Below, piece after piece: positions 23,668-28,560 of a DNA stretch of 36,686 nt. This stretch comes from Bacteroidales bacterium (GTDB lineage Bacteria; Bacteroidota; Bacteroidia; Bacteroidales; FEN-979). The stretch lies in NCBI GenBank assembly GCA_028706295.1, contig JAQWBQ010000033.1, positions 1 through 36,686 on the forward strand, in the 5' to 3' direction. Every line of letters begins with the position of its first letter. Position 1 is the first letter of the stretch. The position numbers and the translations under genes are program-made. The notes under the pieces are model-generated. The model did not search any database. It was not told where the DNA came from and saw only the letters and a list, made by a program, of their open reading frames with translations.

Positions 23668-26097
23668 TTAATAATATCCTGTAAGTGTCACAACTGCCCT
23701 GTTAAACCGTACTTTACACAAGGTCTTGTTCCAGATATAGGATTTCAACAGGCATTTTGAATCACGATGCAGATAGCTCACATCAATCCTATCGTGGATC
23801 CTCAGGGATTTCCACGATTGTGGCTCCTTGCTGGAACCCTGCTCCCTGCACGGGAGTTTGGTAGCATGCCAGAGAAGCTGCTTTCCATCGGGATTGCAGA
23901 GGTCGGTCACAACCAACGGCGCCTTGTCAGGGTCAGTTTCCGATGTTGCCAGCTCAAGGGTCATATCAAGCTCGATCATTTTGATATCTGGATCAACTTT
24001 TAGATCCTGATACAATTGGCGAAACTCTCCCAGGGTGTCGCCGGGATTAAACCTTACCGAATCCTGATTCTTGAGGAATAGTCCAGAAATCTTTTGCTGG
24101 AAAAACAACTCCTGCGGAATCAGCCGGTTCTGTTTGGTCACATAAGTATTTAAAATTTTAAAATCTGCCAGGTTCTTCATCATTTTTTGACAGATGACGG
24201 GAACGTTCGTATCCCGGTTCCAGAACTCGGGCCTGAGCCTGAACAACCGTTGCTGGTACAAAAAGTAATCTCCTTCAAGATATTCCAGTATCTCTTTGTT
24301 GTTAAGAATAAAAGGCACGGAATGGGTATTTCGGAAATTAACGGCTGTGTCGATACCCGTACCGATCCAGGCCGAATAAGGCCGGGTTTTCAGGTGGTAC
24401 CGCGAAGCCAGCAGGGAGAGAAAAGTGGGGGTAATATCGAGGTGTGAGGAGACAGACCTGAAAAATTCCGGTTTTTTCAGCATGGGTGAATAGATCAGGA
24501 GCGGGACGTTGTAATGCGCCATTCCTGAAAACCTGAACAGGTTCAGTTCAGGAAGTCCGTGATCGCCCGTAATGATGAAGATGGTATTTTGATAATCGCT
24601 TCGTTTGCGGTACCTGTTGAAGAATTTCCTGAGCGCATCGTCGGTATACAGAACGGTTGAAAAAATATTTCTGTATTTCACGAGGTCGCGGCGATTCCAG
24701 AAGTCGGGGGGAATATGACGCAAGCGTTCCTCAACGCGGGCGAGGTAATATTCGCTCCGGGGAGGGATGAATGGGCTGTGCAGCGAAAGGGTGAGGTAAA
24801 TGTCGAGCCTCGGCGACCGGTTGGCCGAATCTATAGCCTCAAGGGAGCGCGAAAAGAGATCTTCGTCGGAGTATCCCCAACTGTAGCCGTCGTTGATCAT
24901 GTTCTCCTTCTTATAGCGGGGCCCGAAATACTTCAGAATATAGTGTGTCCCCTGCCTTTTGATGAACTCCTCCATAAAGTTAAACGCCGGATCGCCCCCG
25001 TAATAAAACCCCGTGAAATAACCATTTTCGCGCAACAACTGGATCAGGGTAAGATGCGACGGCATCCGGGAGGCTTCGCCAATAAAGGTCGGATCGCCCG
25101 GGGGCAGAGAGCCGAACATGGCTGGTAAAACATTGAAGGTACGGTCGGAGGTTGCCAGAAAATTGTTCCAGAACAGGCTTTTCCCTGCAAGGGAATCCAG
25201 AAATGGGGTAAAACTGCCGTAAATCGGGTTATTCCCCATAAAACAGGGTGAGAGTGATTCAACGATGATGAATACCAGGTTGGGAGGTTCTTTCTGAAGA
25301 TTGAAAAACGGTCCGAGCACATCCCTTGTCTTCTCCGTGTGGAGAAAGGGATAGCCGGTACCTGTGTATTCGAATTCGGGATGGCTCTGCTGCCAGCTCA
25401 TCGCAGCAGCCTCCGTTTTCCGTAAGTCAGTGTCCGCTTTTGATTTAAATTTATACTTAAGGGTATGATCCAGAAACCAGTAACTTTTATTGAGGGTAAC
25501 ATGGTACTCAAAACGGTTGGTAAACCCGGATTCCTTCAGCTCAAACTTGTACCCCAACGGAATGGCGATCATCGCGACGACATAGAACAATACCACGATG
25601 AACGGGGGGATCTTAATTTTCACGGTCAGGGCGATGGTACAGGCCCAGAGTGCGACCATAACCAGCAGCGGGAACCAGGTACTGAAACTAATCCCGGCCG
25701 AACTTCGGACGATCAGGATCATTTCATTCCAGGAATAGGAAAAGATCACCTGGTCAAGGGGTACAAGTGTAATGATGAAATGCTGGAACAGCACCCATTC
25801 CGCCGCAACATAGATCAGAAAGGAGAGGGCAAGAAAGGTCAACCCGATCCATCTCCGCAGGTAGGCTAATATCAGAAAAGGTATTAGTAAAAGGAAACCC
25901 ACTATTAACCAGACCCATGCATCCTGCACGAATCCCTGAAGTTCGAGGATCTTTGCATGTGCCGGAAGAGTGTGTGCGGCGCCCAGGTAAAAGTACTGCA
26001 ATACTCTGCCTGACAGCAGAATGATCACGGCAAACAGGTTGAAACCGGCAAAATCCGACAGCAGGTGCGATATTTTAGATGCCTGATTTTTTCTCAT
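23668..26097 (-). CDS. LtaS-type membrane sulfatase-fold phosphotransferase
   Basis: An 809-residue inner-membrane enzyme with five predicted membrane segments in the first 185 residues and a periplasmic alkaline-phosphatase-fold domain. Metal and active-site residues can be placed by family comparison: Glu280 (IIVESLSP), nucleophile Thr320 (TSDRTFNVLPAMFGSLPP), His440 (LSLHSPF) and Asp512-His513 (ITGDHGLPE). Relatives include lipoteichoic acid synthase, OpgB phosphoglycerol transferase and lipid A phosphoethanolamine transferases. In a Gram-negative, transfer of a phosphoglycerol or phosphoethanolamine group to an envelope glycan or lipid is most likely. After the enzyme domain there is a C-terminal extension of about 200 residues, probably strand-rich, without a recognised family. 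Confidence 0.86.
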   Translation of the reverse strand: MRKNQASKISHLLSDFAGFNLFAVIILLSGRVLQYFYLGAAHTLPAHAKILELQGFVQDAWVWLIVGFLLLIPFLILAYLRRWIGLTFLALSFLIYVAAEWVLFQHFIITLVPLDQVIFSYSWNEMILIVRSSAGISFSTWFPLLVMVALWACTIALTVKIKIPPFIVVLFYVVAMIAIPLGYKFELKESGFTNRFEYHVTLNKSYWFLDHTLKYKFKSKADTDLRKTEAAAMSWQQSHPEFEYTGTGYPFLHTEKTRDVLGPFFNLQKEPPNLVFIIVESLSPCFMGNNPIYGSFTPFLDSLAGKSLFWNNFLATSDRTFNVLPAMFGSLPPGDPTFIGEASRMPSHLTLIQLLRENGYFTGFYYGGDPAFNFMEEFIKRQGTHYILKYFGPRYKKENMINDGYSWGYSDEDLFSRSLEAIDSANRSPRLDIYLTLSLHSPFIPPRSEYYLARVEERLRHIPPDFWNRRDLVKYRNIFSTVLYTDDALRKFFNRYRKRSDYQNTIFIITGDHGLPELNLFRFSGMAHYNVPLLIYSPMLKKPEFFRSVSSHLDITPTFLSLLASRYHLKTRPYSAWIGTGIDTAVNFRNTHSVPFILNNKEILEYLEGDYFLYQQRLFRLRPEFWNRDTNVPVICQKMMKNLADFKILNTYVTKQNRLIPQELFFQQKISGLFLKNQDSVRFNPGDTLGEFRQLYQDLKVDPDIKMIELDMTLELATSETDPDKAPLVVTDLCNPDGKQLLWHATKLPCREQGSSKEPQSWKSLRIHDRIDVSYLHRDSKCLLKSYIWNKTLCKVRFNRAVVTLTGYY

Positions 26098-26182
26098 CGA
26101 TGATCGACGTGGACTGCCTGCCTGGTCTCAGGGGATTCCGTAATCTTTACCCGATCCATTTGGCCGGATAAAGTTATAAATT

Positions 26183-26554
26183 TTACATCTTTCTTTGCAA
26201 ATATTCAGCCTTTTTAATCCGTTCGGACATTTCGACAGGCTCAATGTCCGAATCCGCAATTCCCGGAAACTGTGAGTAATTCTTTGAAAGGTCGCTGAGC
26301 CTGTCGAAGCGACCATTTACCAGTGCTCTTTTTTTCTTCCTACTCCATCCTTGTACTTGTTTTTCACGATAAAAAGCATCTTCTATTCTTTGAAATTCCT
26401 CAAAATAGACCAATTTTACAGGTAAATGTCTTTTTGTATAGTACGAACCTTCACCATTTTGGTGTTGGGCTATCCTATTTTCCAAATTGATTGTACTGCC
26501 TGTATAATAGGTGCAATTGGAACATTCCAGAATATACATATATCCTTTCATCAA
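26183..26554 (-). CDS. GIY-YIG nuclease with palindrome-encoded tail
   Basis: A small single-domain GIY-YIG protein of the UvrC/URI-like group common in Bacteroidota; 123 residues. The nuclease core is residues 4-80: YMYILEC (the GIY equivalent), YYTGS (the YIG equivalent), Arg27 in NLENRIAQH, Glu64 in DAFYREKQVQGWSRKKK, and Asn80. All expected catalytic residues are present. Typical homologues end soon after the RKKKxALVN helix. Here residues 82-123 are encoded largely by two DNA hairpins (26222-26252 and 26290-26314), giving RFDRLSD and DIEPVEMSE in the protein. The gene is 56 bases downstream of the GH16-like gene on the same strand. Its cellular role is unknown; see findings. Confidence 0.88.
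   Translation of the reverse strand: MMKGYMYILECSNCTYYTGSTINLENRIAQHQNGEGSYYTKRHLPVKLVYFEEFQRIEDAFYREKQVQGWSRKKKRALVNGRFDRLSDLSKNYSQFPGIADSDIEPVEMSERIKKAEYLQRKM
26222..26252. repeat. REP-like hairpin 1, 10-bp arms, core tcgacaggctc
   Basis: Arms ttcggacatt (26222-26231) and aatgtccgaa (26243-26252) are exact reverse complements around the 11-base loop tcgacaggctc (26232-26242). With the closing T-A pair the shared core is 13 bases. It lies inside the 3' coding end of the GIY-YIG gene. Confidence 0.9.
26290..26314. repeat. REP-like hairpin 2, 7-bp arms, same core inverted
   Basis: Arms ggtcgct (26290-26296) and agcgacc (26308-26314) are exact reverse complements. The loop gagcctgtcga (26297-26307) is the reverse complement of the loop of hairpin 1, so the element is in the opposite orientation. 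The closing T-A pair of the core is also conserved. The arms differ from those of hairpin 1 but pair perfectly. Confidence 0.9.
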
Positions 26555-26610
26555 TTAGTATTTGTTTTGGTTTCTTTTGGTTTGTGATTGTCTTCGGCAA
26601 ACTCAGCTGG

Positions 26611-28560
26611 CTACTCAATCGTGACCTCAAAGATCTCTCCTACGTAGTCGGTTCCCGGGAAAGGAATATTATCCTGCGAATAGGCGGAACCGATCCACCA
26701 TTTCGTATTATGGAATTCCTGCGTAATGATCAGCAACATCTGGTTATTCGGGATGGAAGTTATCGATTCATCCATGTACCCTACCACACGCAATTTTTCC
26801 TTTTCCGGTCCGATGCGCCAGATGATCTTATCGGGCTGCCAGTCGATCTGGAAATAATAGTACGGTGCGGCAAAGAGTTCATCGTCGGGTTCCGGGGTTT
26901 TCTGGGTCAATGCGCGGTAATTCTTATCCCAGCGGTGTGCCCAATAGGTCATGCTATCATAACGAACGGGATAACAACCATCGCTGAAGTGGGCGGGTTG
27001 CCAGCAGGCCATATCCCAATTGGTACACGAAACCATGATTCTGCCGTCGTCGGCTGTCACCTCCTCTGGAAAGGGCACATTCCAGTTCTGAACGTTATTC
27101 TGATCATCAATTCCATGGTTATAAACCGGGGGAAGCACCCAGGATGGACAATAGGGAACGGTTTTCAGAATCTCGAAATCGATCTCCGAATATCCCACAT
27201 TCTTCACCCGCTGGTCTTGCTGTCCTCCATAGTAGTTGGCCATATAACCGCCGTTGCTGCAGTCGCGGCGCAGGTTCCAATCGGCCTGCGACTGGGTGAT
27301 CAGCCAGATGGCATTGGTCAGCCCGTTCCACATCCCATGCTTGTTGAGTAACTCGGTCAACTTACATTTTACGGTCCATTTACCAAAAGTCATCCCATGC
27401 CTGGTGATCACACCTACATTTTGTTTTTGCCACTTCCCGAATTCGGATTTCGGATTCCGGATGATGATCTTATGGTTCACGGGATCAGAAACAACCGTCT
27501 GACAAGGTATTTCAGCAACCAGCGCCGTGGTGGCAATGAGTTCTTCTTTTCGGTAAAACCTGCGGTTCCAGTTATAATCCATCCGTGTGTAAGGATCATT
27601 CATGATATCGGTAATGACCGGAATGTTGTTGAGTTTTGTCGACGGATCCACATAATGAACAAATTGTTCGAAAGCTGCATTGCGGTACCAGGATGAATCC
27701 TGACCGCAACATGGGGTTTTCCCCTTTTCGGCCTCCTCTTTTGAATAGGCTGATGGATTGACATAGATCCCGGCTCCGGGGTCGGGGTTTGCCACCACTT
27801 TTAAAGTCTGTGGAAATTTCTGGATAATGGTGTTTGGCAGGGAGGCTCCCGGTCCATACAGAAAATAAAAATAGGGATTGACAAAGCCCTCGGGTGAAGG
27901 TGTGCCAATCTGCTGAACGGTTATCGGGATGATCTTATTTTGCACATTTTCGGGAATGGTAACCACCAACATAAAGCTGTACGCTCCCACCCTCAGGTTA
28001 CGCTTGAACCGGTCGTTATGGCCATCGGCAAAGTAACGCGGTTCATTCCGGGGGTTGCCCACGATTCTGAATTTTGAGGTCACCTGGTGAAAATCACCGT
28101 CGGCCGGGATCATCTCTGTTTCAGCAAAGGTCGCGTCCTGTTCTTCCCAGCTCCCGTAAAAGTTTTCCCAGGCCTGGGGATGCTGGCGCAAGCTGTCGGC
28201 CGGATCGCGCTCGGGGAATTTATACGATTCGTTCTGGTAAAATATTTTGTACATGAATTTTCGCGGTGCGGTCCCGGTATTCCTGATGCTGAATTCCAGC
28301 CTGAAATATCCCTCTTCTGTCTGGTTCGGCGTAGGAACCACGAACCCGCCGGAGATGGCCCCGGAATAGTCGAGCGACAGGGTTGCGCCGGATTTCCAGT
28401 TGGTAATGGGATTGAAATTTTTTACGACGAACTGTTCGCTTGCAACCTCCGGTGACTTTGCACCCTGACCACAGGATAACAGGAACCATGGGAAAAACAG
28501 GAAGGCCAGGAAAACGATTAAATTGTAATTTTTTATAGATCTGTTTCTTTTTTCAGGCAT
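26611..28560 (-). CDS. GH16-like glycan-active lipoprotein
   Basis: A 649-residue lipoprotein with signal peptide and lipobox FLLSC (Cys30). The N-terminal half (about 40-240) is strand-rich and Ig/jelly-roll-like. The C-terminal part resembles glycoside hydrolase family 16: GKWTVKCKLTELLNKHGMWNGLTNAIWLI is the familiar substrate-cleft strand pair, and YSEIDFEIL at 458-465 supplies the EIDxE catalytic triad (Glu459 nucleophile, Asp461, Glu463 acid/base by analogy). YYFQIDWQPDKIIWRIG and the C-terminal strands also fit. The substrate could be a beta-glucan, galactan or the cell's own surface polymer; no SusC/SusD pair is present, so it is not a classical utilisation locus. It is 39 bases downstream of the FG-GAP-like gene, probably in the same operon. 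Confidence 0.72.
   Translation of the reverse strand: MPEKRNRSIKNYNLIVFLAFLFFPWFLLSCGQGAKSPEVASEQFVVKNFNPITNWKSGATLSLDYSGAISGGFVVPTPNQTEEGYFRLEFSIRNTGTAPRKFMYKIFYQNESYKFPERDPADSLRQHPQAWENFYGSWEEQDATFAETEMIPADGDFHQVTSKFRIVGNPRNEPRYFADGHNDRFKRNLRVGAYSFMLVVTIPENVQNKIIPITVQQIGTPSPEGFVNPYFYFLYGPGASLPNTIIQKFPQTLKVVANPDPGAGIYVNPSAYSKEEAEKGKTPCCGQDSSWYRNAAFEQFVHYVDPSTKLNNIPVITDIMNDPYTRMDYNWNRRFYRKEELIATTALVAEIPCQTVVSDPVNHKIIIRNPKSEFGKWQKQNVGVITRHGMTFGKWTVKCKLTELLNKHGMWNGLTNAIWLITQSQADWNLRRDCSNGGYMANYYGGQQDQRVKNVGYSEIDFEILKTVPYCPSWVLPPVYNHGIDDQNNVQNWNVPFPEEVTADDGRIMVSCTNWDMACWQPAHFSDGCYPVRYDSMTYWAHRWDKNYRALTQKTPEPDDELFAAPYYYFQIDWQPDKIIWRIGPEKEKLRVVGYMDESITSIPNNQMLLIITQEFHNTKWWIGSAYSQDNIPFPGTDYVGEIFEVTIE

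Follow-up and report, generated by a model that had tools for sequence, protein, structure and literature searches.

Why would the gene of a small nuclease carry two opposed palindromes in its own 3' end? This question is raised by one locus in a window of 36,686 nucleotides (the whole stretch of DNA analysed here), which is contig C64 of a 4.0-Mb genome of 149 contigs. The features concerned are as follows, the loop classes being defined further below.

26183..26551, minus strand: single-domain GIY-YIG nuclease gene (PF01541), with its ATG at 26551
26306..26551, minus strand: nuclease core, residues 1-82, from the alignment with relatives
26290..26314, minus strand: class A hairpin of 7 bp, GGTCGC-TTCGACAGGCTCA-GCGACC, at the core/tail junction and in frame (GRFDRLSD)
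26267..26284, minus strand: codons of residues 90-95 (KNYSQF), a C-terminal motif of class A type, between both hairpins
26222..26252, plus strand: class A hairpin of 10 bp counting the T-A pair, TTCGGACAT-TTCGACAGGCTCA-ATGTCCGAA, in the last codons of the frame

The two hairpins share the core TTCGACAGGCTCA, have perfect stems and lie in opposite orientation, 37 bases apart; the coordinates, letters, stems, spacing and orientation given in the preliminary description all proved correct when the window was read again. The listed open reading frame (26183-26554, minus strand, 123 aa) starts with a TTG at 26554, one codon before the ATG. PF01541 places the 123-aa protein in the GIY-YIG superfamily (E 7e-17; 61.9 bits against a cut-off of 22.6), and the T5orf172 profile barely exceeds its cut-off (20.1 bits against 20). 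These were the only two Pfam matches at E <=1, with no match to the HUH tyrosine transposases, the kind of enzyme to which the RAYTs (TnpA-REP) belong, and the group I intron homing endonuclease model TIGR01453 scored 14.5 bits, below its cut-off of 56.05. Residues Y6, Y16, R26, H30 and E63 are invariant among 23 aligned relatives, and Y6, Y16, R26 and E63 presumably correspond to the usual catalytic Tyr, Tyr, Arg and Glu of GIY-YIG enzymes. An AlphaFold2 prediction from the window protein to residue 103 and 23 relatives had a mean pLDDT of 88 and a pTM of 0.75, with an average pLDDT of 84 over residues 81-90 and values below 50 from residue 95 onward; the motif at residues 90-95 is located at the end of the confidently predicted fold. 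The best Foldseek matches to this model were 1zg2 and 1ywl, then Slx1. On either side, the gene is flanked by a sulfatase-domain gene (23668-26097) and by a gene for a 649-aa protein (26611-28560) with no Pfam match at E <=0.001. A defence or phage protein was rejected, the nuclease having no PADLOC or PHROGs family at E <=0.1; a tblastn search with the nuclease found 40 plasmid and 23 phage records, every one below 60% identity.

In relatives without in-frame hairpins, the protein commonly stops near residue 96-105, and the last ~25 residues of the window protein, encoded through the hairpin at 26222-26252, exceed this usual end. The preliminary description had regarded about 42 residues as an extra tail; this holds for the last ~25 of them, but the remainder is normal protein that includes the motif at residues 90-95.

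A lone 7-bp hairpin is unremarkable by chance (7-bp stems with an 11-nt loop number four in the window and zero to six across 20 mononucleotide shuffles), but the shared exact 13-mer is remarkable. The exact sequence TTCGACARGCTCA occurs 15 times in the window's own genome and its reversed control not once, and a chance origin was rejected for the shared core on these counts, the single 7-bp hairpin excepted. When the 106-nt segment was folded as single-stranded DNA, its z was -2.6, and 2 of 200 shuffles were equally good. All 15 own-genome cores are flanked by perfect complementary arms of 6-10 bp, counting the T-A pair. Two of the copies sit within the nuclease frame, and this in-gene pair, with the stems GGTCGC and TTCGGACAT, differs from the other 13, which have the stem GGGCAC (12 hairpins) or GGCAC (one). 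These 13 scattered hairpins (L001-L006 and L009-L015, on contigs C9, C20, C28, C81, C87 and C100) are accompanied by flanking heptamers of the GTTTCAG/CTGAAAC type, 3-10 per 300 bp, and three of them (L010, L011, L013) fall under long, mechanically called frames. The class C core has no copy in this genome; an A-type enzyme stands alongside 15 class A cores. Two own-genome frames match PF01541 above its cut-off, the window gene and a 632-aa frame that we take, from its length, to be UvrC; a third match lies below the cut-off.

The hairpins also occur far beyond this genome, contrary to one of the refuting outcomes named in the preliminary description: a class A core is present in 213 of 395 genomes of the phylum, and a match to the 82-aa nuclease core in 243. 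Among genomes with at least 10 class A cores, 32 of 33 by a tally made by eye have a nuclease match (Fisher p 2e-6, kinship ignored), and the number of class A cores reaches 210 per genome among relatives (G371). The exception, G128, combines 27 class A cores with the lack of any nuclease-core match at E <=0.001; a lost gene, an incomplete genome or another enzyme are possible explanations.

The surroundings of the nuclease genes were assessed in 80 loci, the best retained from named genomes, with a motif-free scan for hairpins that have a stem of 7 bp or longer and 9-13 nt in the loop. Such hairpins occur at 3.9 per kb within 0-100 bp of the nuclease core, 4.3 at 100-200 bp, 0.94 at 200-400 bp and 0.15-0.21 beyond 1 kb, a density ~20-fold greater within 200 bp than beyond 1 kb. 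Loops reading TCG..CTC or the complement make up 133 of 156 within 400 bp as against 2 of 67 beyond 1 kb, where no two of the 67 loops are identical. Motif hairpins lie within 400 bp of the nuclease in 73 of the 80 loci: on both sides in 45, only after the core in 23 and only before it in 5, so that 50 loci have them before the core. Within the same distance, 223 of 304 motif matches have stems that continue for 4 bp or more past the T-A pair, with 114 directed along the gene and 109 against it, and 115 of 176 adjacent hairpin pairs are in opposite orientation. These data support palindromes tied to a small GIY-YIG gene of this kind. The association with GIY-YIG genes expected by the preliminary description is thus borne out by the 73 loci and by the enrichment near the gene, but not by every genome, as some have cores with no nuclease match.

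The loops near these genes are 11 or 12 nt long, framed by TTCG...CTCA with a variable middle, and fall into three classes, A (TTCGACARGCTCA), B (TTCGAGARCCTCA) and C (TTCGRCTNCGCTCA), each with small variants. Their stems are free: among hairpins with stems of at least 5 bp, class A has 20 different inner stems in 36 hairpins, class B 19 in 58 and class C 39 in 96. A single loop class is found in 61 of 64 loci that have at least two stemmed hairpins, as against a mean of 10.1 and a maximum of 21 one-class loci in 2000 shuffles. Near-GIY-YIG hairpins at three further loci (L199, L213, L181) have loops outside the three classes; those of L199 and L213, of 12 and 13 nt, are of the TCG..CTC kind and hint at further classes.

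The hairpin at the core/tail junction allows the stem to be followed in orthologous position. An in-frame class A hairpin is present there in the window gene, L049, L050 and L053, and in these four sequences, a small sample picked for having the hairpin, substitutions in the three variable pairs affect both arms and 28 of 28 cells are paired. Such compensatory changes bear out the earlier suggestion that the structure, and not just the copy, is maintained; the stem variants keep complementarity, the opposite of another refuting outcome in the preliminary description. L064 has a class A junction hairpin with a 3-bp stem, the same junction codons of a B-type gene (L100) hold a class B hairpin, and in L092, a gene of C type, a class C hairpin lies within a longer junction. 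The junction hairpin need not be an insertion, because the length of the segment is unchanged (FDKLS against YNKLP in L101).

An alternative is RNA-level feedback, in which the enzyme would restrain its expression by binding hairpins of the mRNA that encodes it, other DNA copies being by-products. The class-matching hairpin at the same codons in the window gene, L049, L050, L053 and L064 (A) and L100 (B), and in the longer junction of L092 (C), agrees with this; however, hairpins precede the core in 50 of 80 loci and many lie elsewhere in the genome, and the balance of hairpin directions (114 to 109) favours DNA over RNA as the substrate. Furthermore, no Rfam family matches 25900-26800 at E <=1, by which a known RNA element was rejected. 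We consider RNA-level feedback highly improbable.

The loop class of a locus goes with the end of its protein. Shortly after the nuclease core, the C-terminal endings read ..LSKNYTQ with class A, ..LA.AYRD with class B and ..L.EC.NETH with class C. In a first set of 108 loci (two duplicates), scored by a fixed motif rule, 82 of 84 loci lay on the diagonal of motif against class (a/A 21, b/B 21, c/C 40), the two others being L028 and L027, in which hairpins of all three classes match (3 A, 3 B, 1 C); 8 had a motif and no hairpin and 16 were uncalled, 5 of these with hairpins. A second set of 80 loci gathered afterwards (78 after removal of 2 duplicates) gave 26 of 26 on the diagonal (a/A 7, b/B 10, c/C 9), the ten b/B loci being a weak independent check for class B because they come from one genus, that of Chryseobacterium mucoviscidosis. 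The rest of this set comprised 6 loci with an a or c motif and no hairpin, ten LAKK-type genes (9 without a hairpin) and 36 uncalled loci, of which 17 had hairpins; in four of the uncalled loci (L183, L193, L202, L206) an ending C.N.S fits the class by eye. With both sets merged, duplicates out and a wider motif rule (166 rows), 114 of 115 scorable loci were on the diagonal, L027 being the exception, where the 11 loci (7 + 4) with more than one class were assigned by majority. In the merged sets, LAKK endings have no hairpin in 22 of 24 cases, hairpins of the three classes are missing at 9 of 61 c-type genes, and 17 rows are uncalled; among distant relatives with an NP..DL-like ending, a hairpin is found in 0 of 14. 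Class B goes with more than one protein ending, as it also pairs with S(K/R)(K/R) endings (L028, L041, L194, L196). At six loci (L034, L161, L169, L175, L178, L180), nuclease frames that seem short or shifted, and are probably decaying copies, still have matching hairpins nearby.

Column by column (125 sequences, 16 listed columns), residues 86 and 90-101 lead in information on class, with 0.36-1.29 bits, and the other three listed columns carry at most 0.23 bits. Residue 91 is the most informative: it is N or S with class A, A with class B and C with class C. On the tree of the core, 39 changes are counted for the loop class and 38 for the motif, compared with a mean of 52 and a minimum of 42 in 200 shuffles. 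With the loop class scattered over this tree, the match between motif and loop is not easily put down to common ancestry of the cores; an independent-pairs test on supported branches of the weak 79-residue core tree had 2, 1 and 2 pairs only and no power. The match agrees with the earlier proposal that the nuclease recognises its own palindromes, and it is this covariation of protein end and loop that suggests recognition.

It also bears on whether another enzyme, such as an HUH/RAYT transposase, spreads the hairpins, with the GIY-YIG gene as a passenger or a hairpin resolver. RAYTs are reported to handle REP sequences elsewhere (PMC2817692, PMC3116915), and the 27 cores of G128 stand there with no nuclease match; a passenger role, however, does not account for the correspondence between the loop class and the GIY-YIG protein's own C-terminal motif, and we regard this explanation as improbable.

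We think it rather probable that the GIY-YIG enzyme and the hairpins form a nuclease-target pair, in which the enzyme recognises and probably cuts the loops of its own hairpins, in a REP/RAYT-like arrangement probably related to Ssn (see below). The core (residues 1-82) would be the cutting domain, and a motif of about six residues (KNYSQF in the window) would read the class-specific middle of the loop, presumably becoming ordered on DNA. The core would recognise the base pairing and the invariant loop ends, TTCG and CTCA, with the stem recognised structurally and many stem sequences tolerated. Hairpins would form in single-stranded DNA during replication, repair or uptake, and the enzyme would cut within or beside the loop. 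Repeated cutting, with repair or copying near the gene, could leave hairpins on both sides and in the 3' end, and might also allow the unit or single hairpins to reach further locations, much as in REP/RAYT systems. The computed results extend to the association, a single loop class per locus, the match of motif and class, covariation in the stem and the presence or absence of one unit; what we infer is the binding, where and on which strand the cut is made, and a spread of hairpins driven by the nuclease.

At one site, presence and absence of such a unit can be compared directly between related species. In Chryseobacterium mucoviscidosis, a unit of 1.04 kb (L126, 3823-4860) comprises a nuclease of C type together with seven exact copies of the class C core; its first hairpin starts within ~30 bp of the left edge, and its last, with a mutated core, ends at the right edge. 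At the orthologous site of G568, the neighbours of L126 match at 89% (left) and 76% (right) with 28 bp between them; the corresponding values in G507 are 83%, 71% and 107 bp, and the examined stretches of both genomes have no hairpin cores. The unit is absent from these two sites, which does not tell gain from loss. The preliminary description had envisaged a self-contained element with empty sites, and here nuclease and hairpins are indeed present or absent as a block. Elsewhere in the L126 genome (G441), a hairpin pair (L248) is shared with G469 and missing from the G488, G494 and G568 stretches, where the intergenic DNA around it is too diverged to show clean edges. Of the 19 class C cores listed on other contigs of this L126 genome, 14 are flanked by stems of 4 bp or more, among which 9 distinct inner stems occur. 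Class C arrays with a period of ~75-80 bp are seen in L126 (4321-4860) and, away from the nuclease, on contigs C52, C84, C118 and C233 of G441. Copying of whole loci was rejected, as most of the best 45 of 2833 DNA matches between the 80 loci stop near the end of the core, and among these 45 no recent locus copy with clear edges was found; L061 and L066, from the same MAG, share 90% identity across 323 bp.

The repeats might instead be the targets of Ssn-like housekeeping, meaning single-strand cutting at repeats in DNA uptake or at replication forks, and multiply by recombination and slippage rather than by mobility. This agrees with what is reported of the Ssn nucleases, with the L126 spacer arrays of ~75-80 bp, which resemble tandem duplication, and with the same stem in 13 of 15 own-genome copies. 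It is less readily squared with a whole hairpin-edged unit that is present or absent at an orthologous site, or with units in many backgrounds, both of which leave the direction of change undecided; we hold housekeeping to be unlikely, yet worth keeping in view. That the nuclease-target pair is in addition a minimal self-spreading element, made of a ~100-residue nuclease and its hairpins, with an exchangeable C-terminal loop code of at least three settings and motif and class switching together, seems to us possible but somewhat doubtful.

In 49 genomes, the copies outside the locus agreed with its class for B (p 0.003) and C (p 0.04) but not for A (p 0.30), and several nucleases per genome may blur this genome-wide agreement. 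Class C cores accompany C-type nucleases in a Spirochaetaceae MAG (86 cores) and a Thiotrichaceae MAG (95 cores). In a Deltaproteobacteria-titled MAG, 20 class A cores occur with a class A locus whose ending, LSKKV, fits no class motif, and 50 class C cores are found in the Kuenenia MAG G398, for which the examined locus is of class B. The Kuenenia case, G128, the class A result above, the c-type genes lacking a hairpin and the S(K/R)(K/R) endings of class B count against the nuclease-target pair. The distribution of cores and nucleases over MAGs of several phyla is consistent with cross-phylum transfer, MAG binning being doubtful.

If the self-spreading reading is true, the locus represents a REP-like mobile system built on GIY-YIG chemistry in Bacteroidota and in MAGs of several other phyla, and its nuclease is specific for the loops of single-stranded hairpins and reveals its target through the protein ending. 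The REP-like repeats of Bacteroidota gain a candidate enzyme, and three C-terminal motifs behind a single conserved core of 82 residues, paired with three loop classes, offer a directly testable protein-DNA code. Were cutting shown, this would be a family of very small hairpin-loop-specific nucleases whose specificity might be swapped through a few residues, and a route to learning how short palindromes spread through genomes.

Among known systems, the site-specific single-stranded nucleases (Ssn), reportedly described by Chenal, Veyrier and colleagues in Nat Commun in 2025, are said to be small GIY-YIG proteins with thousands of homologues, every one recognising a repeated target of its own. 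The window system likewise has a small GIY-YIG protein, and its gene-tied, motif-matched repeats are putative targets. To our knowledge, three loop classes, a match of motif and loop, a constant loop with a free stem, and in-gene hairpins at the motif junction do not belong to the Ssn account. The undescribed system of the preliminary description is doubtful given this family, but the motif-loop match, the constant-loop and free-stem rule and the in-gene hairpin seem to go beyond it. The UPF0213 GIY-YIG proteins (PDB 1zg2, 1ywl) are the closest solved sequences and folds, and we know of no hairpin partner for them. In the open-licence literature, no paper treating such hairpins together with GIY-YIG genes was found, which does not imply that none is published, and neither of two cores nor their complements was found in the text. 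The words "nuclease" and "RAYT" occur zero times in the main text of one REP paper (PMC12306157); a further paper on REP sequences is PMC3733652. With REP/RAYT pairs, REPINs and BIMEs the window system shares short palindromes that are tied to a nearby enzyme gene, are often inverted neighbours and are scattered over the genome; it differs from REP/RAYT in that its enzyme is a GIY-YIG protein, its loop is constant and its stem is free.
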